Part shown: piece by piece, positions 29,979 to 53,681 of the stretch | Position numbering within the stretch: the first letter of the stretch is position 1 | Layout: each line of letters begins with the position of its first letter | Assembly (NCBI GenBank): GCA_001899775.1 | Contig: MKWN01000010.1 | Location: 1 to 64,000, forward strand | DNA length: 64,000 nucleotides | Direction: 5' to 3' | Source of the DNA: Thiobacillus sp. 65-29 | Lineage (GTDB): Bacteria > Pseudomonadota > Gammaproteobacteria > Burkholderiales > Thiobacillaceae | Notes under the pieces: generated by a model | Database searches by the model: none | Told to the model about the DNA's origin: nothing | What the model saw: the letters and a program-made list of their open reading frames with translations, nothing else | Made by a program: the position numbers and the translations under genes

Positions 29979-30524
29979 TCAATTGGCAGTGGCAGCGGGC
30001 GCGTGGAACTCGATCGCATGCCGGGTGTCGCCCGCCGTCTCTCCTGCCTTGAGCGGCGGTCGTTCCGGAGGCGCGGAATAGAACATCTGATCTTTTTCGT
30101 CGCCCTCCATTCCGTAACGCTGATTGCGCTTGAACGGATGCTTCATTACCACCGTTCCCCCCTGCTGGCCAGCCTCGAGCTGTGCGATTTCCAGTTCTTC
30201 GGCGGCCCGCCCACTCCACGGCATCACGTAATAGGCGGGAGCCGCCTGATTCGGCAACTGCAGCCACAAATAAATCGATTCGCCATCCCGCTCGCGTGTT
30301 GCCAGCACCACAGCCTCGGTCGCCTTGGAAAAATATTCCTGCTCGATCGGCCGTGGCCGGGACAACAACTGGTTATAAAAATACAGCGCCAAGCCAACCG
30401 ACACCAGCAAATACAGGAGCGCGACCAGTCTCAAGGCATTACTTCGGGTGGTCTTCATCGAAAACAGCGCATAGCCCAGGGACACAACCAGATACGCAAG
30501 CAGCAACGCAAGCAGGATGTTCAT
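29979..30524 (-). CDS. Unknown membrane protein at the end of the thiocyanate-type operon
   Basis: A 181-residue protein with two N-terminal hydrophobic helices (LLALLLAYLVVSLGYALF and LVALLYLLVSVGLALYFY). A soluble domain of about 120 residues follows, predicted outside the cytoplasm. The domain has EYFSKATEAVVLATRERDGE and an acidic middle. Its ATG overlaps the stop of the ExbD-like gene, and the two share an operon with an ExbB-like protein, so it is probably a third subunit of that module. No family recognised. Confidence 0.8.
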   Translation of the reverse strand: MNILLALLLAYLVVSLGYALFSMKTTRSNALRLVALLYLLVSVGLALYFYNQLLSRPRPIEQEYFSKATEAVVLATRERDGESIYLWLQLPNQAAPAYYVMPWSGRAAEELEIAQLEAGQQGGTVVMKHPFKRNQRYGMEGDEKDQMFYSAPPERPPLKAGETAGDTRHAIEFHAPAATAN

Positions 30525-31174
30525 TTGTACGCCCCGAAGTTGTAGCCGCCAGGCGCATCCGTGCGGAGTTGCTTCGGTGCCGCGCTGACGCTGGATGGCA
30601 CCAGCTCGCCTTTCTCATCCAGCTTGAAACGGAACACCGTCACCTCTTCTCCCTGCTTGTGCAGTTCGACGTCGGATACCAGAATCTGCCGGCTTACACG
30701 CGACGTACCACTGGGTTTGATCGTTGACACCAGCACCTTGGTCTTGAGCGGCCAGACGTCGGCGCGATTGAAATACATGTGCAGATTGACGGTGTATTCC
30801 CCCGCAGGGATATCGCGCGAAAACGCGTTCTCGTAGTTGAGGTTCGAAGCGTCATTCCGGAAGCCGATATCGTCCCGCAGCAGATTGAAAACACGTCCAC
30901 CCAGGTTGGAATAGCCGACCGGGACATCATCCGGCGCCTGCACCCAAAGATCGACGTCGGCGTCGATTCCATCGTCCCAGCGCGCCTCGACAATGACGTT
31001 GCCGGGCGCGGATACTTCCTTGCGCTCGTCCTGTTTCTTTTCGGGCGGATTGATGTGGGGCAGCATGATGACGACCAGCGAGACGAACCCGAGTAGCGCC
31101 AGAGTGATGACGTCGCGAAACACCACATCGGAGTCGTCCTCCGCTTCCGCGTCAAACGAAAAATGCTTGCTCAT
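30521..31174 (-). CDS. ExbD/TolR-like protein with a beta-rich periplasmic domain
   Basis: A 217-residue protein. The N-terminal layout is ExbD-like: an acidic start, then one helix beginning FRDVITLALLGFVSLVVIML with an aspartate where ExbD/MotB carry the proton site. The periplasmic part is not the usual ExbD fold. It has DADVDLWVQAPDD and the sheet-like NLNYENAFSRDIPAGEYTVN, reminiscent of DUF2135/YfaP-type domains. It follows the ExbB-like gene by 10 bases, so the pair is likely an ion-driven motor. Confidence 0.8.
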   Translation of the reverse strand: MSKHFSFDAEAEDDSDVVFRDVITLALLGFVSLVVIMLPHINPPEKKQDERKEVSAPGNVIVEARWDDGIDADVDLWVQAPDDVPVGYSNLGGRVFNLLRDDIGFRNDASNLNYENAFSRDIPAGEYTVNLHMYFNRADVWPLKTKVLVSTIKPSGTSRVSRQILVSDVELHKQGEEVTVFRFKLDEKGELVPSSVSAAPKQLRTDAPGGYNFGAYK

Positions 31175-31184
31175 CGAAGTTCAG

Positions 31185-31784
31185 CTATTGCTGATCCGGT
31201 GATTCGAGGATGGCGGCGATGAGGTTCACCACGCCGGTGCGCAACATGTTGTAGTTGGCGTTGAGCCACAGGTTGGTTATGGCCCCAACCAGCGTGGTAT
31301 AGAGCGCTACCCCCATCCCCTTGGTGAGAGCTCCCACCAGCTTGCCGACCTGGGCAGCGTCGCCCACTGCATTGGCCGGAATATTGGTCAGCACCATGAT
31401 GAAGCCGATCACGGTGCCAAGCAGCCCCAGCATCACCAGACTCGAGGAGATGTATTTGACGAAGGTAATGCGCGCAAACAGCTTGATTTCGAATGCTTCC
31501 TTCACGCTCTCCCGATCGGCCTGCCTGCTGCGGTCGGCGAAGTCCTTGAGCTTGCCCTTGTCGCCACGCTTGACGAAATTCAGTTCGCGGCTGGTTTTCC
31601 ACACGCGGTAACCGCATAGCGCCATGCCATACAGAAAGAGTCCGGCAATCACGTACACGATGTAGGACGAGTCCGCGAGAAAAACGGGCACGACCATGCC
31701 ATTCATGTAAAACACCCACAGGATGGCAAACCCAACCGTGTTCAGTGCGAGCCAGCGATAGAAAAGCAGGTTATTCCAGTTCAT
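31185..31784 (-). CDS. MotA/TolQ/ExbB-like proton channel protein
   Basis: A 199-residue inner-membrane protein with four hydrophobic segments. Two are N-terminal, a basic cytoplasmic loop (KLKDFADRSRQADRESV) follows, and the C-terminal pair contains SSLVMLGLLGTVIGFIMVL and GMGVALYTTLVGAITNLWL. These match the MotA_ExbB core. It is distinct from the ExbB proteins at 5 kb and 38 kb, which have three helices. It forms a module with the two genes below it and lies downstream of the SoxXA genes. Confidence 0.85.
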   Translation of the reverse strand: MNWNNLLFYRWLALNTVGFAILWVFYMNGMVVPVFLADSSYIVYVIAGLFLYGMALCGYRVWKTSRELNFVKRGDKGKLKDFADRSRQADRESVKEAFEIKLFARITFVKYISSSLVMLGLLGTVIGFIMVLTNIPANAVGDAAQVGKLVGALTKGMGVALYTTLVGAITNLWLNANYNMLRTGVVNLIAAILESPDQQ

Positions 31785-31815
31785 GCTGCCGATTTCTCCG
31801 GCGATAGTCGACTAA

Positions 31816-31834
31816 CCTGGGCACTGCGCCCAGG
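31816..31834 (-). terminator. Hairpin between soxK-like and exbB-like genes
   Basis: A 7-bp stem CCTGGGC / GCCCAGG with a 5-base loop lies in the 104-base gap after the SoxK-like gene. There is no T-run, so it may attenuate rather than end transcription, letting the SoxXA genes be expressed more than the channel genes below. Confidence 0.4.
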
Positions 31835-31888
31835 CCCGAAGGCCAGCCCGTGCCGACCCTTTGTTCCGCCGGGTTCACGGGCGGCGCC

Positions 31889-32218
31889 TCAGTACCTTCC
31901 CATGAGCGGATAGGCGAGCTGCCCCATTCCGAGGGACGCCTGTTCGCTGGCGGTTGCCGCGTGCGCGATCACCGCCACACTGTCCTGCTTCTTGGCGGCT
32001 TCCTGGGCCTGCGCCAGGGCCGCGGCTGCGGTCGTCCATAGAACGCCATTGCTCTGTGCCAGCGCGACAGCCGCTTCCGCGTTCGACAGCGCCCAACTCG
32101 CCTCTGGTGTCAGGGCGGCACCCGCCTCGTCACCGGCCGCCTGCGCGCCGGAACCCACGATACCCAGCAACACGATGCCTCCACCCAATACCCTGGCAAC
32201 ACCCTTGACTAGTTTCAT
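31889..32218 (-). CDS. soxK: SoxXA-binding protein (SoxK-like)
   Basis: A 109-residue secreted protein with a signal peptide ending GSGAQA. The mature helix-rich, alanine-rich chain has LWTTAAAALAQAQEAAKKQD and ASEQASLGMGQLAYPLMGRY. This resembles the SoxK/SAXB proteins that bind SoxXA and raise its activity. The order soxX-soxA-soxK is the usual one and supports the call. The ATG chosen has AGGAG seven bases upstream. The alternative is a generic Ala-rich periplasmic protein. Confidence 0.75.
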   Translation of the reverse strand: MKLVKGVARVLGGGIVLLGIVGSGAQAAGDEAGAALTPEASWALSNAEAAVALAQSNGVLWTTAAAALAQAQEAAKKQDSVAVIAHAATASEQASLGMGQLAYPLMGRY

Positions 32219-32255
32219 CACTGTTCTCCTTTGAATTCCCGAGGGATCGACACGA

Positions 32256-33089
32256 TCACTTCCTGAATACCGAGGCCTTGAGCGGCAGCCCGTTACTCAG
32301 GTAGCTGTGGTAGTACTCGAGGTTGTTGTATTCCTCCCCACCGATTTCCAGTGGGACGAGGCGAACCATTTGATGGCATGCGGCGTAACGGCGCTGCAGG
32401 GTGAACAAGGTGTAATCGCCGCCACGAAACGCCGGCCAGTGGGTGGCTTGGCCAGGTGCCATCGAAAGATATTCGGTACGCAGAACGCTACCGACGTAGT
32501 TGATGTGACAGCCCGCACACGAGAAATTGAGTTGGCCACGGCGCTGGTGAAAGAGTCGCTTGCCCGCCTCATAGGCGGCCAGCGCATCCTTGCCTTCCAC
32601 CTTGATGTTCATTTTCATGCCATCGGACAGCGTACGTGCATAGGCCGTCAGCAGGCCCATGGTGTTCATGTCGCTGTGCTTGTAAGGCGCCTCTCCGTTG
32701 TCCGTACGGCACCGGTTGATCGCCATTTCGAAGGTCACCACCTTCTTCGCGGCGTTATCGAACATCGGGTAGTTGCCAGCGACATCCTTGCCAGCACGGG
32801 GGAAGCAGTCCGCGTAGCGCTTGCCGCTCTTGAACGGGGTGTTCCACATCCTGGCGCCCTTGTCGATCTCTGCTTCGTATGGCGGAAAAGTCATGACGGC
32901 GTCGTACTGGGCCTTGGCATCGGGGCTGAAGGCCAGCGCGCCGTACACGTAGTCCTCGACTTTGATGTTTGGATATTTTTCCTGCACCGCCTGTACCACG
33001 CTCCGCCGGTCATCCTCGGGAGACGCCTGCGCGCCTCCCGCGGCCACCAGACATCCCAGGCCAGACAGGAACCAGATCAGTTTTTTCAT
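32256..33089 (-). CDS. soxA: Sulfur-oxidising c-type cytochrome SoxA
   Basis: A 277-residue periplasmic cytochrome with a signal peptide (to about residue 22). A single haem motif CAGCH is at 191-195. Cys95 and Cys127 replace the lost first haem as a disulfide. The C-terminal APGQATHWPAFRGGDYTLFT and ACHQMVR (Cys238) match SoxA; Cys238 is the haem ligand and persulfide site in known enzymes. SoxXA joins thiosulfate or another sulfur compound to SoxYZ, but no soxYZ or soxB is nearby. Confidence 0.93.
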   Translation of the reverse strand: MKKLIWFLSGLGCLVAAGGAQASPEDDRRSVVQAVQEKYPNIKVEDYVYGALAFSPDAKAQYDAVMTFPPYEAEIDKGARMWNTPFKSGKRYADCFPRAGKDVAGNYPMFDNAAKKVVTFEMAINRCRTDNGEAPYKHSDMNTMGLLTAYARTLSDGMKMNIKVEGKDALAAYEAGKRLFHQRRGQLNFSCAGCHINYVGSVLRTEYLSMAPGQATHWPAFRGGDYTLFTLQRRYAACHQMVRLVPLEIGGEEYNNLEYYHSYLSNGLPLKASVFRK

Positions 33090-33128
33090 TTCGTTCTCCG
33101 TATGCTCTTGTGAATAAGTACGCAGCCG

Positions 33129-33497
33129 TTACAGTCCGTACACGTAGTCCACCACCTTGTTGAGCTCGTCGTCGCTAAGAATTCTGTGTTTGCCAAAGGG
33201 CGGCATCAGGGAGTCAGCCTTGGCCTTCGTTGCGTCCCAGACCTGGGCGTAGAGCTTCGCGCGCTCCGGAAAGCGCTCCTTCATGCTGACCAGCGGTGGG
33301 GCAATATCGGTGCTCGTGACGGCCTGGGCATCACTTGGCATGCTGTGACATGCCAGGCAATTGCCCTTGCGGTTATCGAAAGCCAGTTCCTGCCCGGTAA
33401 GCGCCTTGGGACCGTTGGCATGCACCGACTGCGCAAAACCTGCCATCAGGATCAGGCACGCGCCCGCGGCACGGATGGGTGTTGGAATCTGATACAT
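33129..33497 (-). CDS. soxX: Sulfur-oxidising c-type cytochrome SoxX
   Basis: A 122-residue periplasmic monohaem cytochrome with a signal peptide (to about 27), haem motif NCLACH at 46-51 and the axial methionine in LMPPFGKH (Met98). The C-terminal LSDDELNKVVDYVYGL is typical of SoxX. AGGAG precedes the ATG. It pairs with the SoxA encoded 39 bases downstream and lies in an operon with the thiocyanate dehydrogenase-type gene, so it may pass electrons from either reaction. Confidence 0.93.
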   Translation of the reverse strand: MYQIPTPIRAAGACLILMAGFAQSVHANGPKALTGQELAFDNRKGNCLACHSMPSDAQAVTSTDIAPPLVSMKERFPERAKLYAQVWDATKAKADSLMPPFGKHRILSDDELNKVVDYVYGL

Positions 33498-33535
33498 ATC
33501 TGCTCCTTGGTATGACCGGATATCGCTATCCGGTG

Positions 33536-34192
33536 TCATTGAAAAGCACATGGGCCAGGCTTCAGGTCCGGGCACGTTGTGCTGGCATCAGTCTGCATTT
33601 CCGAGACCTCCACGTCGCTGAAATCGGCTTCGTGGAGATTCGCGCCCACGAAGTTCGTATCGCCCATCACGGCGAACAGGAAGCGGGCCTCGTAGAGATC
33701 GGCATCCTTGAAATTCGTGCGCCTCAGGTCAGCGCCTTCCATGTCGGCGTGTTCCAGCAGCGCACCGCTGAAATCGACAGCCGTCAGGTTGGCCTGGGTA
33801 AAGCTTGTGCGATTGCCGTTCGTCCCCGTCAAATTGCTGCCGCGCAGGTCGGCACCGTTCATCACCACGCCCGCGACCACGGCACCGCGCAAATCGGACT
33901 CGACCAGACGCGCACCCTGCAAGTTGGCGCCGGTAAGAAACGCACCGCGCAAATCGGCACCGGAAAGATCCGCCCGCTGCAGATCGGCGCCCAGAAGATT
34001 GCGGCCAGACAGATCCACACCCCTCAGATCGCAGCCGACACAGGCGTTGGTGGTGAGCAGGCGATCCAGATTCGGCGTCGACGCCTGCTCCAGCGAAGCG
34101 CCCTCCGACTCCTTCCAATGCCCGACCAGCACGGCAAGCATCAGGCCGGTCGCAAGCAAAGGGATCAGCACTGGGATACCCGTGTGTTTCAT
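33536..34192 (-). CDS. Pentapeptide-repeat protein with N-terminal membrane anchor
   Basis: A 218-residue protein with one hydrophobic N-terminal segment (IPVLIPLLATGLMLAVLVGHW) and, from about residue 58, roughly 25 repeats of the A(D/N)LxG type, for example LLGADLQRADLSGADLRGAF. These form a right-handed quadrilateral beta-helix, here probably facing the periplasm. Two cysteines, CVGC, precede the repeats. Function is unknown; pentapeptide proteins act as protein-binding scaffolds or DNA mimics. The TcDH-type operon context argues for a periplasmic scaffold. Confidence 0.85.
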   Translation of the reverse strand: MKHTGIPVLIPLLATGLMLAVLVGHWKESEGASLEQASTPNLDRLLTTNACVGCDLRGVDLSGRNLLGADLQRADLSGADLRGAFLTGANLQGARLVESDLRGAVVAGVVMNGADLRGSNLTGTNGNRTSFTQANLTAVDFSGALLEHADMEGADLRRTNFKDADLYEARFLFAVMGDTNFVGANLHEADFSDVEVSEMQTDASTTCPDLKPGPCAFQ

Positions 34193-34255
34193 CAGATATG
34201 CTCCCGCCAATTCATCGACATTCCACCGTAATGGCGAGGTTCCGCCCCGTTGCCG

Positions 34256-34684
34256 TCAATTCAGGCTGAAGCGGATATGCTGCGACGCTTCACCATTCAT
34301 GCTGACGGTCAACACCAGCTTCATGCCTTTTTCCGGCCTGATCCGTGCATCCTTGATCGCCAGCCCGTTGCTGCCGGTCGGTGCCATGCTCAGGGAAAAC
34401 GTCTGGTTTCCACTGACGATACGCAGCGTGCTGACCGCACCTTTTGTCGCCTGCGGGACGTCCCCGTGGTCGGTCACCCAGACATTGGCCTCGCCGTTCT
34501 TGATAAGCAGCTCGAAGTGATAGTTACCGGCCATGCGCAACATGCCGCCATGCGCACCTTTCATCGTTGCCAGGTGTTCGTTGCTGTGCGCCCATGCCAG
34601 GATGGGCAAACCCAACAAAGCCATCAGGAATATGCGTATTGCCGCATAGGCCAGATGACTCGGATTCAGGGTACTGACATTCAT
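34256..34684 (-). CDS. Small periplasmic protein, possible metal binder
   Basis: A 142-residue protein with a signal peptide (to about AWA) and a mature start HSNEHLATMKGAHGGMLRMA rich in His and Met, which suggests copper binding. The HGG...YHFELLIKNGEANVWVTD pattern resembles the small beta-domain found in heavy-metal RND adaptors. GAGGAG precedes the ATG. It lies between the TcDH-type gene and the pentapeptide gene, so a copper-delivery role is plausible but inferred. Confidence 0.78.
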   Translation of the reverse strand: MNVSTLNPSHLAYAAIRIFLMALLGLPILAWAHSNEHLATMKGAHGGMLRMAGNYHFELLIKNGEANVWVTDHGDVPQATKGAVSTLRIVSGNQTFSLSMAPTGSNGLAIKDARIRPEKGMKLVLTVSMNGEASQHIRFSLN

Positions 34685-34759
34685 TTTCGATCTCCTCGCG
34701 TGCATCATTGAAGCCATCCAGAGTGCCGCCGGCAGCGCACACTGCCGGCGGCTTGTCCG

Positions 34760-36226
34760 TTACACCGAAGTGCTTCGGGAGTACTTCAGGCCTTCCCAGC
34801 TTTCGGGAACGACGACGTGGTCATGCATGCCGCCCGGACACGGGAGACGCGCCTCGATCTTGTCGCTTTCAATGTTGATGAAGACAATGCCCGACTGACC
34901 CGCCTGGTGTCCGGAGTAGACGGTCGTCATGTACTTGCCGTCCACGGTGCAGTCGCAGGTGTGGGGATCCGGACCCGTATCCCACTTGGCGGTCACCTTC
35001 CAGGTCTTGGTGTCCACCTTGCAGATGTAGCCGTTGTTCGGCTTGCGCGCCCACATCGTGAAGTAGGCGAAGCGCGAGTCCGGGACGTTACCCATGTGGA
35101 GCGGGAGGAACTTGGTACCGAAGCCCTCGACGAAATTCTCCTTCTTCCACTTGGTCGGGTCTTCATTCGTCGAACGATAGACGGCGATGTTGTTCTGCAG
35201 CACGTTGTTGCAGGCGAGGAAGTATTCACCGCTGGTAATGAAGCCGGCTTCGTGCAGCGGCGTCAGAACGGACGGCACCGCAAACGTCCAGGTGAAACCG
35301 CTTTGCTTCACGAGGGGGAAGTTGTCCGGGGCACCCTTTGCGGTGGACAGCAGGGCAACGACCTCCCAGGTTCGGGTATCGACGATGGCACAGCAGCCTA
35401 GACGACGAATCAGGATGGCACCGAACGGCAGGGTCGGGTGCCAGGTGAAGGCGTCAACGAAAACCGCGGTCGGGTCAGCCGGCATCAGTTCTTCGCCGAG
35501 CATGGCTTCGTGCGAAGTTTTCATGCCCTTGCGGCCGATGTAGTCGAACTTTCCGGTCGTCGCGTCGGGGAAGACCTGGCTCACGTTCAACTGACGCGCA
35601 ATGGGATCGTAGTCAGCGCGGAACGCCTTGACGATCTTTGGGTTGTCGTCGATGGTCGTGATCAGCACCATGTCCTTCTGACCGTCCGCAAACGCAACGT
35701 ACTTGTTTGCGTTTTCGCCCACACCGATCGACACGTGCACGCCGAGCGCCATGCCGGTGGTCGCCGAGATGTCGTTCACCACGGTGATCGAGTTCTGCTT
35801 GCCGCTACCGTCGTAGCGCATCTTGAACATCTTGAAGTCACCGCGGTTGCGCCACTCGGGGGAGTTCTCGTTGACGTAGGGCGCTGCAGGCGGCTGCATC
35901 GTCTGATAGAAGTCGAAGCCCTTGTACGGATCAGCAGACGGCATTGCAGCAATGTGGTGGGGAATCGGCATGTCGATGCCGTAGAGGCCATAGGGGTACC
36001 AGGCAAGGGTTTCAGGAACGGACGGATCCATCGCCTGCACGTAGCCACCGTACTTGCTGGGAAGCAGGATGACGTTGCCTTTGAACTTCCTGAACAAATC
36101 GGCCTGCGCCTCGCCCACCGGGTCGTGTACCGCCGCGAACGCGTTGCTCGATCCCAGCATTGTCGCGGTTCCGGCCATACCTGCCGTGAGCGCGCCCTTC
36201 ATGAACTGCCTTCTGTTGATACTCAT
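34760..36226 (-). CDS. Thiocyanate dehydrogenase-type copper enzyme (Tat-exported beta-propeller)
   Basis: A 488-residue secreted protein. The signal has the Tat motif NRRQFMKG, a hydrophobic stretch and an AFA-A site. The mature chain shows propeller features and many conserved His residues. Candidate copper ligands and active-site residues are K58, H90, H164, E240, H325, H377, H422 and H468. The spacings K58-H90 (32), H377-H422 (45) and H422-H468 (46) equal those I recall for Thioalkalivibrio thiocyanate dehydrogenase (K103, H135, H437, H482, H528). That enzyme makes cyanate and elemental sulfur from thiocyanate in the periplasm. Family membership is strong; substrate is inferred. Confidence 0.85.
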   Translation of the reverse strand: MSINRRQFMKGALTAGMAGTATMLGSSNAFAAVHDPVGEAQADLFRKFKGNVILLPSKYGGYVQAMDPSVPETLAWYPYGLYGIDMPIPHHIAAMPSADPYKGFDFYQTMQPPAAPYVNENSPEWRNRGDFKMFKMRYDGSGKQNSITVVNDISATTGMALGVHVSIGVGENANKYVAFADGQKDMVLITTIDDNPKIVKAFRADYDPIARQLNVSQVFPDATTGKFDYIGRKGMKTSHEAMLGEELMPADPTAVFVDAFTWHPTLPFGAILIRRLGCCAIVDTRTWEVVALLSTAKGAPDNFPLVKQSGFTWTFAVPSVLTPLHEAGFITSGEYFLACNNVLQNNIAVYRSTNEDPTKWKKENFVEGFGTKFLPLHMGNVPDSRFAYFTMWARKPNNGYICKVDTKTWKVTAKWDTGPDPHTCDCTVDGKYMTTVYSGHQAGQSGIVFINIESDKIEARLPCPGGMHDHVVVPESWEGLKYSRSTSV

Positions 36227-36261
36227 CACATTCTCCTAAGTTTTAGCGATCCAAATCCGCT

Positions 36262-36900: not shown

Positions 36901-37003
36901 AATTCCGCTCCTTAAGGTTCTCCCCCATCCCACGTGAGCCGGCCGACTGACAGACCTATTCAAATTGGATCGAGGCGCGACAAAATGTCGCTGAACCAAA
37001 GCC

Positions 37004-37020
37004 AAGCATTCATCGTGCCA
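37004..37020 (-). promoter_or_regulatory. Sigma-54 promoter of the TcDH-type operon
   Basis: Minus-strand TGGCACGATGAATGCTT: the -24 element TGGCACG is perfect and the GG-N10-GC spacing is exact. Transcription should start near 36995, giving a leader of about 95 bases to the redoxin gene. The next block up the strand ends at 37249, and a TGTTTC-N5-GGAACG motif lies about 65 bases upstream. Confidence 0.85.
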
Positions 37021-37083
37021 GATGATGTTTATGGTGTGGTTTCAATCACTTGCCTGATTTCAAGCGCGGCTTGTTTCGAAGTT

Positions 37084-37101
37084 TGTTTCACGTTGGAACG
37101 A
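37084..37101. promoter_or_regulatory. Probable activator site 1
   Basis: TGTTTCACGTTGGAACGA is a near-palindrome of the type TGTTYC-N5-GGAACG. It lies about 65 bases upstream of the -24 element at 37020, the normal place for a sigma-54 activator. The same motif occurs at 43683-43700 and 53764-53781. The remaining bases of the 36901-37248 gap hold no gene. Confidence 0.65.
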
Positions 37102-37213
37102 CCTCATGCGCTCGCTGAAAAAAACTGCCAACACGGAACGCGATAAGAAACGAAGCGAACGGGTTCTTTCAGGCGGGAACGTATCTGTTCGGCGACTGCG
37201 TTCGATGAAACGC

Positions 37214-45690: not shown

Positions 45691-48351
45691 TCAGGCCACC
45701 TCGCGCCCAATGAAGGTTTCCTCGACCCGGGCGGGTACCCGCACGAAAAACGCCGTCCCGTGGCCCACTTCGCTACGCAGCCGGATACGGCCGCCCCATT
45801 CCCGCACCAGGCGCTGGACAATGGCCAAGCCCAGGCCGGCACCCAGCGGTCGCTGCGAGTAGAAAGGCTCGAAAATCCGGGCCCGGCTGCCGGGTGCGAT
45901 GCCTTTCCCGAAATCGCTCACCGCCAGCAGGAAACAGCCCGGATAACAGCGCAGGGCCACTTCGATTCGTCCCGGGCCGGGGATGGCCTGGGTGGCGTTC
46001 AGCAGGAGATTCCAGATCACCGTCTCAAGCCCATCGGAGTCGAACACCAGCAGCGACGAGATGGGTTCGATCTGCCGCATGACCACGATGGGCAGCCCCT
46101 CCTGGCTGATGTGCCGCTCCAGCAGGGCGCAGGTTTTCTCGATCGTCCGCTCCAGCACGATCGGCTTGTTGATCGGCGTGCGTGGTTTGCCAAAAGACAG
46201 GAAATTGCTGGTGAGCCCGGTCAGGCGTTCCACTTCGCCCTGAATGATCTCCAGCGCGGCATGGGCACGTGACGGTTCTGCAACGTCCGCACGCAACACC
46301 GCCAGGCAGTTGTTGATGGCCGAGAGAGGATTGCGCACTTCGTGCGCCACCGAGGCGGCCATCTGCCCCATGACCGCCATCCGTTCGCTGCGCAACTTGG
46401 TCTCCTCGGCCACCCTGAGTTGTCGATTGAACTCGGCAAGCCGTGCATAGCTACGTGCATTGTTGATGGCGATCCGCACCTGGCCGGCCAGCAACTCGCC
46501 CTTGCCCAGCGTGGCAGCGCTGAAGCGCACCGGCTCCTTGCGCGCCAGCACCATCACGCCGACGAGATCATTGCCGTCGAGCAAGGGAAACAGGGCGAGC
46601 GCCTCCCATGGACAGCCTGCGGGCTTGCCGAACGGGGTCGGCATCGAATCGTCGCGCCACAGGATGCCGAGAGGCAGGTAATGTCCGCCAATGCCGCGGA
46701 GCAGTGCGGCGCACTGGTCACGATCCCCGCACCAGGCCTTGAGCTCCGCCGACACCTGCTGGTCCGTCTCGGAAAACCATCCTGCCGCAAGAGAGTATTG
46801 CTCGCGGGTTTCGTCGTCGGGCAGCCAGACCAGCGCGGCGTCGCTTTCAAACAGACCCGCGCTTTCCTTGCACACCGCATGCAGCACGCGGTCCAGGTCC
46901 AGGGTCGAGGTGAGCATGGTGGATACCCGCAACAAGGCCGTGCGGAAATCGTTGGCGTCCTGGCGCTGCTGGTAAAGCAGTTTGTCGTGCACAATGGCGC
47001 TGACCTCCACGACGAGTGCGCGCACGACATCCGCGTGCCGGGGCTCCAGCCCCGGCCCCCTCGCCAGCAAACGCAGTCGACCGATCTCCTCACCGTTGGC
47101 ACTGAGCGGCAGACACACGGACGTACAACCCGCATCCCGCCAATTGCATTGCACGAGCCCAGGTATCGACAGGACGGGCCGACAGCTCGCGGGATTGCAG
47201 GTACTCGACGCGCGCTGGGCACACACCGGCCAACGGGCGCTCAGCCGGCGTATGCGGCGATTGAATTCGTCGACTTCGTCCTCGGGCACATGCAGGGCGA
47301 GCTCGGACAGGGTGAACCCCAAGAGCTGACGTATCGCCCGGGAAACGGCGTCCAGGGCCTCGTCGAGATTCCGCGTGAGCATGCCCTCCTGGAACAAGCG
47401 GTTGCGAATCGTGAGCTCCTGGTTGAACACCTGGGCCGTCCGCCGGGAGCGCGCAAGGCTGCGGTTGGCGCGGGCAAGCAAGTGGCGCGAATTCTCGATA
47501 GCCCGCAAGGCGAGCAGAAAGCCGACGAACACGATCAGCATGGTACCCAGATAGAACAGGAGTTTGGTGCCGTGCCACACCCACCATGTCAGGTTCCACA
47601 GGCTGGAGAAGCTGAAGAGGTAGGCACTTTGCGCGAACACAATCAACAGGCTCGCCACCAGCAACGCCAGAGCCTGGCGATGCACACGAAAATGGCGAAA
47701 GAACGCGATGGCCGCCAGCACATAGAACACACCAGCCAGATAATGGACGATATGAACCTGCGCAGGGAACGTGCCGCCGCTTGCGGAGAAAAGTTCCGGG
47801 ATATAGTGCCGATACAGCCACGCCACACCGGCCATCACGGCCAGCCCGACGGCAAACGTCATGAGGTCGGCCCTGGAAAATCCATGATCGCGCTCGCCTG
47901 CAATACGCACGAGCGTACCCGCCAGGATGAGGACACTGCCGAAAAAGGTCGAGAGCGTGTGATACAGCACGAAATCCGCAAAATCGCGGTGCGGATCCGT
48001 CCATGCATGCAGCATGTCGAAGATGCCCATGATCAGGAATCCCAGTCCGAACATGAGCATACTCAGGCTGCGCCGTCTCAGGCAGATCGACAGGATCATC
48101 GCGGAAACCGTCAGGGCGGTGAAACCGCAGAAGGTCTCGACGAGAAGATGGCTTTGCGGTTCCGGATATGCCTGCTCCAGTGCGGAAAGCGAGAGCTGCG
48201 GAAACACGGCAAGCGGCGCGGCCAGCAGCAGCACCAGCCACAGGAACGCCCCGACTTCCGGCAGGCTGACGAGCGGGCCCCGCTGTCTCGCAGCGCCATG
48301 GTCCCCGGTCAGAAAAGCCGCCAGGTAGGAAACGGGTGATTGGGTGAACAT
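45691..48351 (-). CDS. Membrane sensor histidine kinase with two GAF-like domains
   Basis: About 886 residues if started at the ATG with GGGGCGG upstream. The N-terminus has about eight helices of the MASE3 type (residues 20-290). A GAF-like domain carries a cysteine-rich stretch (CAQRASSTCNPASC, QCNWRDAGC, roughly residues 375-415). A second GAF-like domain follows (about 485-640). The HisKA has VAHEVRNPLSAI and the HATPase DFGKGIAPG and GAGLGLAIV. It feeds the response regulator below. The cysteine cluster could sense metal or redox state. Confidence 0.9.
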   Translation of the reverse strand: MFTQSPVSYLAAFLTGDHGAARQRGPLVSLPEVGAFLWLVLLLAAPLAVFPQLSLSALEQAYPEPQSHLLVETFCGFTALTVSAMILSICLRRRSLSMLMFGLGFLIMGIFDMLHAWTDPHRDFADFVLYHTLSTFFGSVLILAGTLVRIAGERDHGFSRADLMTFAVGLAVMAGVAWLYRHYIPELFSASGGTFPAQVHIVHYLAGVFYVLAAIAFFRHFRVHRQALALLVASLLIVFAQSAYLFSFSSLWNLTWWVWHGTKLLFYLGTMLIVFVGFLLALRAIENSRHLLARANRSLARSRRTAQVFNQELTIRNRLFQEGMLTRNLDEALDAVSRAIRQLLGFTLSELALHVPEDEVDEFNRRIRRLSARWPVCAQRASSTCNPASCRPVLSIPGLVQCNWRDAGCTSVCLPLSANGEEIGRLRLLARGPGLEPRHADVVRALVVEVSAIVHDKLLYQQRQDANDFRTALLRVSTMLTSTLDLDRVLHAVCKESAGLFESDAALVWLPDDETREQYSLAAGWFSETDQQVSAELKAWCGDRDQCAALLRGIGGHYLPLGILWRDDSMPTPFGKPAGCPWEALALFPLLDGNDLVGVMVLARKEPVRFSAATLGKGELLAGQVRIAINNARSYARLAEFNRQLRVAEETKLRSERMAVMGQMAASVAHEVRNPLSAINNCLAVLRADVAEPSRAHAALEIIQGEVERLTGLTSNFLSFGKPRTPINKPIVLERTIEKTCALLERHISQEGLPIVVMRQIEPISSLLVFDSDGLETVIWNLLLNATQAIPGPGRIEVALRCYPGCFLLAVSDFGKGIAPGSRARIFEPFYSQRPLGAGLGLAIVQRLVREWGGRIRLRSEVGHGTAFFVRVPARVEETFIGREVA

Positions 48352-48405
48352 GGACCGCCCCGTCATCAAGCCGATAAAGTGTTATGTTAGGCCGTAACCG
48401 GCTCC

Positions 48406-48421
48406 GGCCATAGCCATGCCA
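48406..48421 (-). promoter_or_regulatory. Weak sigma-54-like element upstream of the kinase gene
   Basis: Minus-strand TGGCATGGCTATGGCC keeps GG-N10-GC but lacks a good -12 TTGC. It lies 55 bases before the kinase start, just after the end of the RND pump gene. It may be a chance match; the kinase could equally be transcribed from the 53.67-kb promoter. Confidence 0.3.
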
Positions 48422-48434
48422 GGAAGGCGGCCGC

Positions 48435-51400
48435 TCAGGCACTCATCTTCGCGAACCGACCTGGCCAGCGGGAAGCCAGCCATGCGAACAAGGTGGGGAT
48501 GACCACCAGATTCAGCAAGGTCGAACTCAGCATGCCCCCCAGCAGGACGATCGCGAGGGGACGTTCCATTTCCTTGCCGGTGGGATCGCCGAAAATCAGC
48601 GGCGTCACGGCCAGCGCCGCGGTGAAGGCCGTCAGCAGGATCGGCACCAGGCGGTCACACGCGCCCCGGACGGCAATTTCGGCCAGAGCGGCCTGCGGCT
48701 GGTCGTGCATCAGGTGCTGGTAGCGGGAAACGAGCAGAAGGCTGTTGCGGGTTGCTACGCCGAACAGGGCCACCATACCGATCATCGACGAAACGTTCAG
48801 GGTTTCACCAGCCAGGGCGAGGGCGAAGACGCCGCCGATCAAGGCAAGTGGCAGGTTCAGCATGACCAGCGTCACCAGCGGCCAGTTGCGGAACGCCTGG
48901 AACATGATGAGCGTCATCAGCACCAGAGCGGCAGCGCCGGACAGCAGCAGGGCACGCGTGGCGCGCTGCTGCCCCTCGAAATCCCCGCCGATCTCCAGCG
49001 CGTACCCGGGCGGCAGCTTGACCTTCGCCTTGATGCGAGCCTGCGCCTCGCGCACCACACTGTCGAGATCGCGCCCGTCGGTGTTCCACTGCACGACCGC
49101 ACGGCGCGCGCCGGTATCCCGGTTGATCATGTAGGGCTCCTGCACGGAGACCAGTTGCGCCAGATCCCGCAGCGGCACGACGACACCTTCCGGTGAAATC
49201 AGTGGCATGCTACCCAACGTCCGGATGTTGGCACGGGTCGCCTCGTCGATGCGCAGGAACAGGTCGAAGGTGCGGTCCTGCTCCAGCACCCTGGAAATCG
49301 CCACGCCGTTGAAGGCCTGCTCAACCTGAGCCACGATGGCGCCGGGCGAGAACCCGTAGGACGCCGCTACGGCCCGCTCGACCCGAACATCGATACCCGG
49401 CACGAGAATCATCGGTTCCATCTGCAGATCGACGATTCCAGCGATGCCCTGCACCGCTGCATGGATCTCCTGTTGCTTCTGCTGCAACACCGCGAAATCC
49501 TGGCCGTAGATCTTGATCGCCACCTGGGATCGCACGCCCGAGAGAATTTCCGACATGCGGTGGGTGATGAATTGCGAGACGTTCGTCGACATCCCGGGAA
49601 TCTGTGCAAGCCGCTCGCGGATTCGCTGCATGACCTCCGGTACGTTCGCCGTCCCGGGTTTCAGGGCAATGTCGAACTCGCTGAAATTGACCGGCTGGGC
49701 ATCCTCGTCGAGCCGCGATCGGCCGGCACGCTGCGCCAGGCTCGCGACCTCCGGCATGTCGCCGATCAGCTTTTCCACCTCGCGGCCCATGCGCAGGTTT
49801 TCTTCCAGCGAGGTGCCCGGCATCATCGTGGTGGCAATCACCAGATTGCCCTCATGAAAAGGCGGAATGAAGGAACGACCGAGCCCCGAAAAAACGAATG
49901 CCGCGGCGGCCACCAGCGCCAGGGTACCTACCATCACCGGAAGTGGCCACGTCAGCAGGCGTCGCAGGAGGCCGCGATAGCGTACCAGCAGGAATTCCGA
50001 TACCGGCCCGAGGCCGTATTCGTGCCGCGTGCGGCCCATGAAATAGTAGCTCAGCACCGGCACCAGGGTGACGGCGACGATCAGCGAACTCGCGATGGCG
50101 GCCAGGTAGGCGATGGCCATCGGCTGAAAAATCCTTCCCTCGATCCCCTGCAGGAAGAAAATCGGGGAGAACGCGACAAGAATGATGAGCGTGGCGAACA
50201 CCACCGAGTTGCGAATTTCCCGGGAACCCTCATAGACGATGTCCAACGCCGGAACGGGCGCGGCTGCGGCCTTGTTCTCGCGCAGCCGACGCAGGATGTT
50301 TTCCACGTCGATGATGGCATCGTCCACCACCTCGCCGATGGCGAACACCAGACCACCCAGGGTGAGTGCGTTGATGCTGATGTCGAGCATCCACAGCACG
50401 AGCACGCCAGCGAGCAGGGAAGTGGGAATTGCAACCAGGCTGATCGCCGTCGGCCGCCAGCGGAACAGGAACAGTAGCAGGACGAGCGCGACGATGACGG
50501 ACGAATGCAGCAGCGCATCGCGCAGGTTGTCGATCGACGCCTCGATGAAACTGGCCTGACGGAACAGATTGGGGATCAGTTGCACGTCCTCGGGCAGGTT
50601 TTCGGCCATGGCGGCCAGCACCTTTTCGACGTTGCGCGTGGTCTCCATCGTGTCCGCACCCCACAATTTGGACACCGTCCCGATGATCGCCGGGCCACCA
50701 AATATCTGCCCATCCCCGCGCTTCACCTCGCTGCCAAAGCGAACCTCCGCGACATCTCCGACATGAATTGGCTGGCCGTCGCGCATCACCACCAGCGTGT
50801 CCGTCACATCGCGCAGGCTGGTCACCTTGCCGTTGGCGCGGATGAAATATTCCTCCTCCGCACTCGGATAAACGAATCCTCCCGGCGCCACCAGATTGGC
50901 GGCGCGCAGCGCCTGCGCGACCATCCCGGCGGACACGCCGTACTTGCGCATGCGCAGGGGATCGAGCAAGACCTGGTACTGCTTGACCCCACCCCCCACC
51001 GCAACCACCGATGCCACCCCCGGCTGCGCCAGAAGCCGGTTGCGGATATCCCAATCGACCAGCGTGCGCAACTCGTGTTCGCGATTGGCGCCGGACCAGT
51101 CCACCAGACCGAATTTGAGCAGCCAGCTCACCGCCGATGTCACCGGCATCATCTGCGGCGTCTGGGCGCCGGAAGGAAGCTGGCCCTGCACGGTCTGGAT
51201 ACGTTCCTGGACGATCTGGCGCGCGCGGTAGATATCGACACCCCATTTGAACACGATGGTGATGCGAGACAGGCCAACGGAGGAGTTGGAACGGATATGC
51301 TCGATGTAGGGAGCACCCTGGAGCACGACCTCGATCGGTCGCGTAACCAGCGTTTCCACATCGTTGGCGGAGTAGCCCGGAACCTCGGTCTGGATCTGCA

Positions 51401-51539
51401 CCTGCGGCGGCGCGAACTCCGGAAACACGTCCACCGCCATGTTCAGCGCCGCGACAATACTCGCGCCCGCAAGAATCACATACAGCGCGATCACCGTCAG
51501 TCGGTTCCGCAGAGACCATCGGATTGCCCAATCGAACAT
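48435..51539 (-). CDS. Heavy-metal efflux RND pump (CusA/CzcA family)
   Basis: A 1034-residue inner-membrane RND protein with 12 helices and two large periplasmic loops. The N-terminus (IRWSLRNRLTVIALYVILAG), ETVLQGAPYIEHIRSNSSVG-like region and the TM4 motif AIGEVVDDAIIDVENIL place it in the heavy-metal branch. The TM4 motif differs from both Zn/Co-type CzcA and Cu/Ag-type CusA as I know them, so the metal is not certain. It pumps metal from periplasm to outside with two adaptors upstream; no outer-membrane factor is encoded nearby. Confidence 0.92.
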   Translation of the reverse strand: MFDWAIRWSLRNRLTVIALYVILAGASIVAALNMAVDVFPEFAPPQVQIQTEVPGYSANDVETLVTRPIEVVLQGAPYIEHIRSNSSVGLSRITIVFKWGVDIYRARQIVQERIQTVQGQLPSGAQTPQMMPVTSAVSWLLKFGLVDWSGANREHELRTLVDWDIRNRLLAQPGVASVVAVGGGVKQYQVLLDPLRMRKYGVSAGMVAQALRAANLVAPGGFVYPSAEEEYFIRANGKVTSLRDVTDTLVVMRDGQPIHVGDVAEVRFGSEVKRGDGQIFGGPAIIGTVSKLWGADTMETTRNVEKVLAAMAENLPEDVQLIPNLFRQASFIEASIDNLRDALLHSSVIVALVLLLFLFRWRPTAISLVAIPTSLLAGVLVLWMLDISINALTLGGLVFAIGEVVDDAIIDVENILRRLRENKAAAAPVPALDIVYEGSREIRNSVVFATLIILVAFSPIFFLQGIEGRIFQPMAIAYLAAIASSLIVAVTLVPVLSYYFMGRTRHEYGLGPVSEFLLVRYRGLLRRLLTWPLPVMVGTLALVAAAAFVFSGLGRSFIPPFHEGNLVIATTMMPGTSLEENLRMGREVEKLIGDMPEVASLAQRAGRSRLDEDAQPVNFSEFDIALKPGTANVPEVMQRIRERLAQIPGMSTNVSQFITHRMSEILSGVRSQVAIKIYGQDFAVLQQKQQEIHAAVQGIAGIVDLQMEPMILVPGIDVRVERAVAASYGFSPGAIVAQVEQAFNGVAISRVLEQDRTFDLFLRIDEATRANIRTLGSMPLISPEGVVVPLRDLAQLVSVQEPYMINRDTGARRAVVQWNTDGRDLDSVVREAQARIKAKVKLPPGYALEIGGDFEGQQRATRALLLSGAAALVLMTLIMFQAFRNWPLVTLVMLNLPLALIGGVFALALAGETLNVSSMIGMVALFGVATRNSLLLVSRYQHLMHDQPQAALAEIAVRGACDRLVPILLTAFTAALAVTPLIFGDPTGKEMERPLAIVLLGGMLSSTLLNLVVIPTLFAWLASRWPGRFAKMSA

Positions 51540-51558
51540 TTGTCAGCCCGTCATCGGT

Positions 51559-52791
51559 TCAGTGATCATGGTGGTGGGTATCGGCAGCCCCGCCGGCGCC
51601 GGTCGAAATGCGATGAAAACCTTCCAGCATCATTTTGCCGGCCACCACCACCTTGGCGCCCGCCTCCACCCCATCCACCCGCAACAGTTCGGTGGATTCG
51701 TCCAGCACCGCCACCGGCGTGCGCCGGTAGCGGCCCGGTGCGATTTTTACGTAGACCACGGGCCGGACCGCCTGCCCGAGCACGGCCTGGCGCGGCACCC
51801 AGACCCCCGTGCGCGCGTCCAGGCGCAAGCTGAGATCCACGGCCTGGCCCATTGCCAGCCCCACCGGCGCCCGACCCAGATCGACCAGAAAACGCGCGCG
51901 CTGCGTGTTCGGGTCCACGATGGGTAGCACCTGGGTGATGTGACGCTCAAGCTGACGGCCGTCCGCCAGTCCGACGCGCACGGGCAAGCCCGGCCGCAAC
52001 AACGCGCGCTGGTCGGGATAGACATAACCCTCCACCCACGGCGCGGCCTGGGCAGATACCATCCGCGCCACGGCCTTGCCGACCACCACGAACTGTTTCA
52101 TGGTTCTGTCGCCGGCATTCACCACAGAGCCCGGCTGTACGAAGAGCGCCGTGACGAACCCGTCGGCGGGTGCATCGAGCGTGATGTGGTCGACGACCTT
52201 GCCATGCTCGATGAGATCACTGATCTGCCGGTCGTTCATGCCCCACCAGCGCAGATTCTCCTTCGCATCCTTCAGATAGTTCGGTAACCGCCCCTCTTCG
52301 CGCAGCGCCTGTAGTTTTTCCTCGTTCTTCAGGAATTCGAGATGGCCTCGCTGCGTCGTGATGAACTCGGGGTTGAAGATCGAGATGATGGGCTGGCCCT
52401 TGCGCACGCTGTCCCCCACACGGACATGCACATCCTTCACTTGGCCACTGACGATGAGATTCACGTCAAGCATGGCCTGCGCATTGGGAACAACCAGACC
52501 ATAAGTCTTTACCGTCGACGCCTGTGATCCGGCCTGGGATTCGGCCAGCGTGAACAGACTGAGTTCCTGCCCCGCCACACCGGGCGGCAACTGCACCTCA
52601 CTGGCAACCGCGGCCGGTGTGGCCGCCGCAGCCCCCGCCTGGCCGAACATGCGGGGATCGCTATGCCCCGAAGCCTGCTGTGCCAGCATGACGAGCAACC
52701 CGCTGCAAGCCAGCGCGCAAACGCCTCCTCGCCACGGCTTGTGCCACACGGACGCCCGGCGCCTCTCCCCCGCCTCAATGCGCATGATCAC
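51559..52791 (-). CDS. RND efflux periplasmic adaptor, CusB-type (long)
   Basis: A 410-residue secreted adaptor. A signal peptide (ends ASG) leads to HSDPRMFG at the mature start. A lipoyl/barrel-sandwich part (VSGQVKDVHVRVGDSVRKGQ) and the CusB-type helical segment follow (QRGHLEFLKNEEKLQALREE). The beta-barrel and membrane-proximal domains end with a His-rich tail, HHHDH. The GTG start overlaps the TGA of the short adaptor gene; the ATG two codons on is also possible. Confidence 0.9.
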   Translation of the reverse strand: MIMRIEAGERRRASVWHKPWRGGVCALACSGLLVMLAQQASGHSDPRMFGQAGAAAATPAAVASEVQLPPGVAGQELSLFTLAESQAGSQASTVKTYGLVVPNAQAMLDVNLIVSGQVKDVHVRVGDSVRKGQPIISIFNPEFITTQRGHLEFLKNEEKLQALREEGRLPNYLKDAKENLRWWGMNDRQISDLIEHGKVVDHITLDAPADGFVTALFVQPGSVVNAGDRTMKQFVVVGKAVARMVSAQAAPWVEGYVYPDQRALLRPGLPVRVGLADGRQLERHITQVLPIVDPNTQRARFLVDLGRAPVGLAMGQAVDLSLRLDARTGVWVPRQAVLGQAVRPVVYVKIAPGRYRRTPVAVLDESTELLRVDGVEAGAKVVVAGKMMLEGFHRISTGAGGAADTHHHDH

Positions 52792-53639
52792 CCCCCCACA
52801 CTCACACTTGCCTGCAGGCCAGCCGGCAAAGCCATCCCGTTCGGCGGATTGCCCATCAGCCGCAGTCGCACACGCTGACGCTGGTTGATCGGGTTAACGA
52901 AGGCAAAGACACGCTGCACGAGAGCCGGGATCGCGACCTCGCCGCGGCGCGCGTCGACCACATACATGGTCGCCGGCTGCCCCGGCCTCAGCTTGCCCGC
53001 CACCTTCGCCGGCAGACTGGCTTCCACCTGCATCGCCGCCGGGCGGGCGATCGTCAGAATGGTCGTCCCCGTCGCGGTGTACTGCCCGACTTGCCCGCTC
53101 GTATTCAGAATCTGGTTGTTGACGACGTTCAGGCCATAGATGTAGCCGGTCTCCGGCGACTTGATGCGGATCCTCTTCAAGGGCTCGCCCCGCGTTTCCA
53201 GCAACTTGATGTCCTCTTCGGACATTCCCCGCCAACTCAGCCCCATGCGGGCGTCGATGAGCTTCTCGTTGCCCGTCATGGAGAATTCCCGCACCGCCTC
53301 CATGTTCGCGAACAAGCCCAGATACGTGCCCTGAATGGTCTCCAGTTCGGCGCTTTCCATTTCACCCAGCACCTCGCCGCGCGTCACGCGCTTTCCCACA
53401 TACAGGTTGTTCAGCCGGGTGATGCGCGCGTTGATCTTGATGGTCACGTCCACCAGTTGCCGCGGGTCAAAAATCACCGACGCCGGATAGCGCGCGGCCG
53501 CCTCCACCGGGTGATCATGATGGTCCGCCGCGGACGTCGTCCCGCCGAACATCGACGCATCGGAATGCGCATGCGCCGCCGCAGGCGCGCTCACGAGCAG
53601 GAACGCCACGAAAATCCGTTGAAGCAGCATTTTCTTCAA
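52788..53639 (-). CDS. RND efflux periplasmic adaptor, short
   Basis: About 283 residues (TTG start; ATG three codons later also possible). A signal peptide leads to HSDASMFGG at the mature start, then HHDHPVEAAAR. These share the HSDxxMFG and His cluster with the long adaptor, but the rest has a shorter single-domain layout (RITRLNNLYVGKRVTRGEV). It is the first gene after the 53.67-kb sigma-54 promoter. Whether it works with, or instead of, the long adaptor is unknown. Confidence 0.85.
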   Translation of the reverse strand: MKKMLLQRIFVAFLLVSAPAAAHAHSDASMFGGTTSAADHHDHPVEAAARYPASVIFDPRQLVDVTIKINARITRLNNLYVGKRVTRGEVLGEMESAELETIQGTYLGLFANMEAVREFSMTGNEKLIDARMGLSWRGMSEEDIKLLETRGEPLKRIRIKSPETGYIYGLNVVNNQILNTSGQVGQYTATGTTILTIARPAAMQVEASLPAKVAGKLRPGQPATMYVVDARRGEVAIPALVQRVFAFVNPINQRQRVRLRLMGNPPNGMALPAGLQASVSVGG

Positions 53640-53663
53640 TCAGGGGAAGTCGATACACGACAA

Positions 53664-53681
53664 AAAGCAAATCTCATGCCA
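53664..53681 (-). promoter_or_regulatory. Sigma-54 promoter of the RND pump operon
   Basis: Minus-strand TGGCATGAGATTTGCTTT has exact GG-N10-GC spacing and the same -12 sequence TTTGCTTT as the DUF302 promoter. Expected start near 53656, 17 bases before the adaptor start codon. A perfect TGTTCC-N5-GGAACG site lies about 85 bases upstream. Confidence 0.88.

Follow-up and report, generated by a model that had tools for sequence, protein, structure and literature searches.

A thiocyanate dehydrogenase-type island in Thiobacillus with its own SoxXA paralogue

Thiobacillus sp. 65-29 (assembly GCA_001899775.1) carries on contig MKWN01000010.1 a gene island centered on a thiocyanate dehydrogenase (TcDH)-type propeller and containing a distinct form of the cytochrome pair SoxXA. 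We analyzed positions 1 to 64,000 of this contig, here called the window. An initial annotation, made from the sequence alone, had described a one-strand gene block from 53.6 to 30.0 kb, and gene calling confirmed it: 23 genes run from 53639 down to 29979, every one of them on the minus strand. The genes overlap or are separated by gaps of at most 104 bp, except for 243 bp upstream of the unit that holds TcDH. In transcription order, the first presumed unit comprises two CusB-like adaptors, a CusA/CzcA-type pump, a histidine kinase, and a sigma-54 regulator; the second, a DUF302 protein, SodC, a BNR protein, a TlpA-like thioredoxin, a TonB-dependent receptor, TonB, ExbB, and ExbD; and the third, a redoxin-fold protein, TcDH, a small beta-sandwich protein, a pentapeptide-repeat protein, SoxX, SoxA, a SoxK-like protein, an ExbB/MotA-like protein, and two unknown proteins. 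Plus-strand genes for an M48 peptidase (28725-29528) and a GGDEF protein (54097-55698) border the island, and the latter is followed by plus-strand genes for flagellin, FlaG, and FliD.

The edges of the island were sharpened by comparison with an empty site. A stretch from genome G013 (L083, contig C44) aligns to the window up to 29872 and again from 54013, with 17 bp between, and is 88 to 91% identical to the window next to the island edges, which places the edges at about 29873 and 54012. The GC content is 0.620 in the island vs 0.667 and 0.645 in the flanks, and the GC content at third codon positions (GC3) is 0.759 for 22 island genes vs 0.838 for 26 flanking genes hand-picked from the called genes (p 6e-7). 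Since a close relative lacks the segment and its GC3 is lower, we conclude that the island was horizontally acquired and inserted in a Thiobacillus. The island of Thiobacillus thioparus DSM 505 lies ~13.5 kb from the same right flank as in the window. In the near relative G004, other genes follow the left flank, and neither the island nor the right flank stands beside it in the stretch examined. The stretches examined from G010 had no match to the flanks of the window. At the 29872/54013 spot, genome G054 has a 1.2-kb insert (L082 2037-3282) whose frames, read as proteins, include two resembling a toxin-antitoxin pair and a small DNA-binding-like one, and given this insert, the site may be a hot spot.

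All nine PDB sequences that matched the central protein under an E value of 0.001 in a phmmer search were, by title, TcDH or its mutants (1.7e-79 for 8q9x and 1.1e-68 for 5f75), and its identity to characterized TcDHs is 33 to 38%. The published active site comprises K103, H135, H136, Q156, H206, E288, D314, H381, H437, H482, H528, D529, and R544 (PMC6504805). All 13 residues, with the Thioalkalivibrio paradoxus numbering checked against that list, are identical in our alignment. They are also conserved across very different phyla; the relatives were found via two motifs, and because one of these covers the H135-H136 stretch, conservation there is not independent. In a Foldseek search with an AlphaFold2 model (predicted local distance difference test score of 86, built with 32 sequences), the first 20 rows were all TcDH, from Pelomicrobium and T. 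paradoxus, with template modeling (TM) scores of 0.85 to 0.91 and 33 to 36% identity; the remaining rows among the 50 matches listed scored below 0.6, the next folds being NirN and cytochrome cd1. Every copper ligand thus has its counterpart, and neither the tree described below nor Foldseek placed the protein with another propeller family. On sequence and predicted fold, we assign it to the TcDH family, as the initial annotation had done. The same annotation called it Tat exported; the motif NRRQFMK is present, and the twin-arginine signal scores fall just below both cut-offs (20.1 vs 22.7 bits in Pfam and 16.5 vs 16.7 in NCBIfam). Among more distant relatives (L045, L051-L055, L057-L059, L061, and L062, from Melainabacteria/Cyanobacteria metagenome-assembled genomes [MAGs], Planctomycetota, and one Nitrospirota MAG), glutamine stands in place of the copper ligand H482, the same change as in the laboratory H482Q/H447Q mutants with solved structures.

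A tree of 47 TcDH rows placed the window protein in a group of 25 rows, which we call clade N. Besides Thiobacillus, clade N holds two other betaproteobacterial MAGs, Thiohalobacter, a gammaproteobacterial MAG, Guyparkeria, Nevskiaceae, Rhodoplanes, a Hyphomicrobiales MAG, Afipia, Paracoccus, Amaricoccus, and Pseudaminobacter. Thioalkalivibrio, Pelomicrobium, Nitrospirota, Melainabacteria, and Planctomycetota occupy the other side, so that the Thioalkalivibrio and Pelomicrobium rows lie opposite clade N across the midpoint root of a tree without outgroup. In this tree, Thioalkalivibrio thiocyanoxidans represents tpTcDH, and Paracoccus sp. S-4012 and the partial locus L041 were left out, as in the active-site table. 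Two cysteines, C340 and C425, are specific to clade N (25/25 vs 0/23 outside), and C425 stands two residues after the copper ligand H423. Since clade N extends over three proteobacterial classes at 77 to 82% identity to the window protein (60% for Nevskiaceae), its distribution fits horizontal spread. The Paracoccus S-4012 locus (L040, G130:C49:139140-140592) has TcDH in pieces and a CusA that is shortened; its contig also carries a SoxA fragment, and the locus may be a decaying island or an assembly error.

TcDH was detected in 13 of 56 genomes of the genus Thiobacillus and, in an even draw of the order, in 5 of 399 genomes, our own counted. A thiocyanate hydrolase-type subunit (PF02979) was also found in 13 of the 56, four having both; nine of the 13 TcDH-bearing genomes, the window's included and some of them incomplete, gave no PF02979 match. 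Cyanase does not clearly track TcDH (9/13 with TcDH, 23/43 without). The initial annotation had regarded TcDH as known mainly from haloalkaliphilic Gammaproteobacteria and hence notable in a betaproteobacterium. This holds only in part, as the type is known in Gamma- and Alphaproteobacteria, including Thiohalobacter, Guyparkeria, Afipia, and Paracoccus, and one solved TcDH is from Pelomicrobium, assigned to the class Hydrogenophilia in NCBI. Pelomicrobium was formerly placed in Betaproteobacteria. Genome G037 has two TcDH loci (L018 and L020), the second followed by a SoxY gene at the contig end; this MAG is 7% contaminated, and two strains are possible. L026, a record titled Rhizobium sp., has a T. 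thioparus-type TcDH locus, and the title is probably wrong because the matching genome G005 groups with Thiobacillus. A T. thioparus record with this locus has already been named for its cusB genes (PMC6504805).

Of the three Sox proteins proposed initially, SoxX and SoxA scored over their family cut-offs. In 11 Thiobacillus loci, soxXA directly follows the pentapeptide gene and is itself followed by the SoxK-like gene, and L026 and L041 end before that point. The island SoxA (73 to 100% identity to the window's) was present in 13/13 TcDH-positive and 0/43 TcDH-negative genomes of the genus, the latter having only the core type, at 57 to 64%, or none at the threshold used. Twelve of the 13 genomes carry it on a TcDH contig; the remaining one, G005, has TcDH at a contig end and SoxA close to where another contig begins. 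The core SoxXA of Thiobacillus belongs to the same SoxA family, with one CxxCH and all ligands kept; core SoxA is 57 to 64% identical to the island protein and stands in a soxXYZA-B cluster. In a SoxA tree, from which the duplicate row L136 had been dropped, the 14 linked Thiobacillus sequences formed one clade (support 100/99) apart from the 17 core ones (100/100). The heme CxxCH, the Cys ligand, and the Arg are retained throughout the linked SoxAs (22/22 rows, including a duplicate). No soxYZ match was obtained in the window; the core soxYZ, named by reading, lies elsewhere in the genome. The TcDH-negative genomes G013 and G054 contain, between soxZ and soxA, an additional SoxA-like gene (L093 7343 and L094 3068) that is divergent and groups with a Thioalkalivibrio sequence.

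Linkage of sox genes to TcDH recurs in the rest of clade N. Seven of the 13 other clade N genomes have soxA or soxXYZ within 12 kb of TcDH: SoxA is 3.1 kb away in Rhodoplanes, 3.4 kb in Nevskiaceae, 9.1 kb in P. thiocyanatus, 11.8 kb in the Hyphomicrobiales MAG and in Afipia, and 11.9 kb in Amaricoccus. In the seventh, REEB275, soxXYZ follows TcDH to the contig end, and soxA-soxB and a TcDH-type pentapeptide gene start another contig. The positions vary, with sox genes upstream of the thioredoxin-like gene, upstream of cusB, downstream of cusA, or on the opposite strand. In the assemblies of Thiohalobacter (637 kb apart) and of Guyparkeria, NAT125, GL140, and Pseudaminobacter (other contigs), the genes are unlinked, and in Paracoccus S-4012 a below-cut-off SoxA fragment lies 17.7 kb from the broken TcDH. 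Outside clade N, linked sox genes were found in 0/6 genomes searched of 22, one of the six being without SoxA and one having a weak match, and 21 loci showed no Sox match in the stretches examined, where Thiobacillus queries may miss diverged genes. In a placement model, 0.14 linked lineages of 12 were expected and 6 were seen (P about 1.5e-9, Afipia and its near twin merged); the model is simple and post hoc, with the distance chosen after the data, REEB275 counted by its soxXYZ, and genomes assumed independent. The linked SoxAs of Rhodoplanes, Afipia, and the Hyphomicrobiales MAG group together (100/96), apart from the remaining SoxAs of the same genomes, and the long branches of REEB275 and Nevskiaceae make their positions unsure. 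Together, a dedicated SoxA type that goes with TcDH in Thiobacillus and a recurrent sox linkage in clade N are new observations of this work, as far as the literature searched shows.

The gene-order comparison suggested initially showed that a published cluster already has much of the island's order. In Thiohalobacter thiocyanaticus HRh1 and Guyparkeria SCN-R1 (PMC6504805), the loci share the order cusB-cusB-cusA-histidine kinase-sigma-54 regulator-thioredoxin-like gene-TcDH, with TcDHs 82% and 78% identical to the window's, and also the thioredoxin without redox cysteines and the downstream beta-sandwich and pentapeptide genes. Unlike the window, their stretches examined had no match to SoxXAK, the TonB system, BNR, or DUF302, and SodC had only a 31% match in Guyparkeria. 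The Thioalkalivibrio TcDH cluster (PMC5328954, PMC5744179), together with structure 5f75, shares the fold, the active site, and a sigma-54 two-component system, and some of these clusters have an outer-membrane receptor and a BNR gene, as in the window (PMC5328954); however, the Thioalkalivibrio enzymes are only 33 to 37% identical to ours and fall in a separate part of the tree, and their clusters have copCD, tatA, fccAB, and ABC transporters where the window has Cus and Sox genes. The best solved match, Pelomicrobium methylotrophicum TcDH (8q9x and 8z75, TM 0.86/0.91, 36% identity), lies outside clade N, has two insertions not in the window protein, and has SoxA on another contig. Afipia sp. 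64-13 has a clade N TcDH 79% identical to ours, and the Afipia "thiocyanate desulfurase" (PMC8061750) has, like the window protein, 489 residues; unlike in the window, Afipia 64-13 has soxZ-soxA upstream of cusB, where its near twin has soxXYZA.

Table 1. Features of the island in the window
Feature	Coordinates	Strand	Basis or remark
Acquired island	29873..54012	.	Edges from the empty site, accurate to a few bases
Small membrane-type protein, unknown	29979..30524	-	No family in Pfam/NCBIfam
Unknown protein, one N-terminal hydrophobic stretch	30521..31174	-	No family in Pfam/NCBIfam
ExbB/MotA-like membrane protein, three-gene module	31185..31784	-	PF01618
SoxK/SAXB-like small periplasmic protein	31889..32221	-	NF052674, 24.2 bits vs cut-off 95
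SoxA, TcDH-linked paralogue	32256..33089	-	TIGR04484, 206.2 bits vs cut-off 110; clade apart from core SoxA
SoxX	33129..33575	-	TIGR04485, 78.3 bits vs cut-off 61; real start probably internal ATG
Pentapeptide-repeat protein, hydrophobic N-terminus, N- and C-terminal Cys pairs	33536..34210	-	Pfam Pentapeptide
Periplasmic beta-sandwich, CrdA/FetP-like fold	34256..34717	-	Fold search
TcDH-type copper propeller with Tat-like signal	34760..36229	-	phmmer vs PDB, active site, tree, AlphaFold2/Foldseek
Thioredoxin-fold protein (redoxin), cysteine-free	36262..37005	-	Pfam Redoxin; likely start internal ATG near 36900
Sigma-54-type site before thioredoxin-TcDH unit	37005..37020	-	1 mismatch
ExbD/TolR-type protein	37249..37668	-	PF02472
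ExbB/TolQ-type protein	37673..38425	-	PF01618
TonB	38428..39147	-	PF03544
TonB-dependent receptor, ligand not assignable	39125..41263	-	PF00593, PF07715
TlpA-like exported thioredoxin	41280..41768	-	Named by sequence reading; longer frame without Pfam match
BNR-repeat (sialidase-like) protein	41765..43072	-	PF13088
Cu/Zn superoxide dismutase SodC	43036..43641	-	PF00080
DUF302 protein	43707..44282	-	PF03625; likely internal ATG start
Sigma-54-type site before DUF302-SodC unit	44278..44293	-	1 mismatch
Sigma-54-dependent response regulator	44314..45690	-	PF00158, PF00072, PF02954; GSFTGA where GAFTGA usual
Membrane histidine kinase, GAF and MASE3-like (just below cut-off) domains	45691..48369	-	Pfam
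CusA/CzcA-type heavy-metal RND (resistance-nodulation-division) pump	48435..51539	-	TIGR00914, 785 bits vs 701
CusB-like adaptor 2	51559..52791	-	PF16576
CusB-like adaptor 1	52788..53639	-	PF16576
Sigma-54-type site before cusB-cusA-kinase-regulator unit	53666..53681	-	1 mismatch

The remaining genes largely matched the functions first assigned to them (Table 1): family matches were found for a dedicated TonB system, SodC, a metal RND pump with two adjoining adaptors, and one two-component system. No outer-membrane factor CusC was found by Pfam among the 23 island genes, to which the search was confined. The best PDB matches of the TonB-dependent receptor are YncD and a pyrroloquinoline quinone transporter; a copper receptor is unsupported by the sequence (TIGR01778, 39.8 bits vs cut-off 472). 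Of the accessory proteins described initially, and rather loosely, as copper rich, the beta-sandwich protein has a fold of copper proteins and is probably a copper chaperone. A first fold search gave nothing under an E value of 0.001, and the fold call comes from a second look; in the family alignment, H44 and H67 are conserved and H84 is nearly invariant. The pentapeptide gene was matched in 21 of 26 clade N loci, and no copper motif was seen on reading its product. A thioredoxin-like protein has been suggested as a sulfur carrier (PMC6504805). We disfavor this idea: the redoxin domain next to TcDH is free of cysteine in all 22 homologues that span it, of 26 loci with a match, a feature that we report as new. 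Read from these sequences, the protein could not hold a persulfide on cysteine and would be a poor sulfur carrier. The DUF302 gene comes next after the sigma-54 regulator, and DUF302 genes lie between soxA and soxB in other sulfur oxidizers (PMC5248467). The membrane module at 29979-31784, after soxK, is kept in L017, L020, L023, and L024 and is reduced or absent elsewhere.

Predicted sigma-54-type sites before the island units are a further new feature. Three of the four one-mismatch sites in the window are on the minus strand, just before presumed island units. The site before the thioredoxin-like gene has at most two mismatches in 14/21 loci vs 58/1000 random segments, and in the four loci with four mismatches (L033, L036, L037, and L040) no sigma-54 regulator was found in the stretch examined. 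Three findings weigh against this regulation: the pattern is not enriched over the window (13 matches vs 15.6 expected), which leaves placement and conservation to speak for the sites; several of the 14 loci are near-duplicates; and the Thiohalobacter loci L027 and L029, which do have the regulator, offer no site better than three mismatches. Placement and conservation nevertheless suggest that the island is probably sigma-54 regulated.

Thiocyanate was named initially as a presumed substrate, and the reading is strengthened by relatives at 78 to 86% identity in reported thiocyanate users, namely, Thiohalobacter and Guyparkeria SCN-R1 (PMC6504805) and T. thioparus DSM 505; for Afipia, thiocyanate use is a prediction (PMC8061750). 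T. thioparus DSM 505 also has a hydrolase-type subunit (PF02979). In contrast, the window's own genome, 99.99% complete, has no PF02979 match, and we rejected a carbonyl sulfide route by ScnABC in this host. The TcDH of T. paradoxus converts thiocyanate to cyanate and sulfur, and its electrons can go to cytochrome c552 (PMC9456337). We consider it probable, with clear reservations, that the window holds an acquired, probably sigma-54-regulated thiocyanate-oxidation island in which SoxXA takes electrons and/or conjugates sulfane to SoxY. The exported copper propeller would oxidize thiocyanate in the periplasm to cyanate and sulfane sulfur. The island SoxXA(K), paralogous to the core SoxXA, would accept the electrons and/or load the sulfane onto a cysteine of SoxY, with chromosomal SoxYZ as the predicted acceptor, and the sulfur would thereby enter the Sox pathway. 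Copper would be handled by the Cus-type pump, SodC, the CrdA/FetP-like protein, and possibly the TonB-dependent receptor.

Several points weigh against this proposal. The SoxK assignment is weak, its score being below the SAXB model cut-off. Taken together, the linked SoxAs do not form a single lineage, requiring at least four to five changes on the tree, and that of P. thiocyanatus pairs with the other copy of the same genome (97/90). SoxXA is not an obligatory neighbor, since soxA is not linked to TcDH in Thiohalobacter and Guyparkeria. In the Thiohalobacter report (PMC6934394), neither the purified clade N TcDH nor cell-free extracts degraded thiocyanate, and the electron-transfer protein is described as not yet known. 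Finally, the window's genome has no cyanase match (PF02560), which speaks against use of cyanate by cyanase in this host; Thioalkalivibrio is implied to lack cyanase too (PMC6504805).

The presence of the sox genes may reflect no more than the need to oxidize the sulfur of thiocyanate further. TcDH would then be correctly named, and SoxXA would be no direct partner but would serve downstream thiosulfate or sulfur, as sox genes gather in sulfur-oxidation islands. We rate this alternative as possible, though doubtful. The unlinked genomes and the ordinary lineage of the P. thiocyanatus SoxA speak for it, as do the TcDH-adjacent clusters of Amaricoccus, Nevskiaceae, and REEB275, which are of soxXYZAB type, as general sulfur oxidation predicts, and the use of cytochrome c552 instead by Thioalkalivibrio (T. 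paradoxus; PMC9456337). However, the window island has soxXA(K) only, with no soxYZB, and its separate SoxA lineage tracks TcDH throughout the genus.

The main rival, which we consider unlikely, makes the clade N enzyme a copper-dependent single-subunit thiocyanate hydrolase that forms carbonyl sulfide and ammonia and needs no electron acceptor. In its favor, a thermostable enzyme that degrades thiocyanate was reported from the alphaproteobacterium THI201 (Hussain et al. in 2013); unlike the TcDH reading of the window protein, it is reportedly a hydrolase that makes carbonyl sulfide, with 457 residues, a 32-residue Tat signal, and 83% identity to a T. denitrificans protein. A review places the THI201 enzyme among solo-subunit nitrile hydratases, and Huddy et al. 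call the 489-residue Afipia protein closely related to it. The purified TcDH inactive on thiocyanate (PMC6934394), the missing cyanase match, and the clade N cysteines would also suit a hydrolase. Against it, all 13 TcDH active-site residues are kept, cyanate accumulated in FOKN1 cultures (PMC6934394), and the gene is accompanied in the genus by a cytochrome pair, which a hydrolase would not need. A different small sulfur or nitrogen compound as substrate of the propeller, such as another pseudohalide or a copper-sulfur detoxification substrate, is very improbable given the enzyme's close relatives in thiocyanate-using organisms and thiocyanate reactors, even though its identity to characterized TcDHs is low, one of its clade-specific cysteines is two residues from a copper ligand, and very different phyla share its active-site residues.

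Within the thiocyanate-oxidation reading, we put forward one further idea tentatively, rating it as rather unlikely: clade N TcDH could be half of a sulfur-transfer machine in which the propeller splits thiocyanate and the dedicated SoxXA loads the sulfane onto SoxY. The overall reaction would be SCN- + H2O + SoxY-S- -> cyanate + SoxY-S-S-, and C340 and C425, unique to clade N, could hold sulfur on the way. The propeller alone would be idle, which would explain why purified preparations have been reported as inactive and why the electron acceptor is missing.

Altogether, the enzyme and its cluster add a member to an already known system, and TcDH could already be detected in this genus; what is new is the TcDH-specific SoxXA. 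Among the degraders of thiocyanate, a pollutant from mining and coke ovens, Thiobacillus is prominent, and thiocyanate hydrolase is the usual explanation. Because so many TcDH-bearing Thiobacillus genomes lack a PF02979 match, TcDH may often provide the alternative route in the genus. The neutrophilic TcDH branch had no known electron or sulfur acceptor; the TcDH-specific SoxXA may be the enzyme's missing partner and, as a concrete candidate for enzyme assays, makes the acceptor question directly testable.

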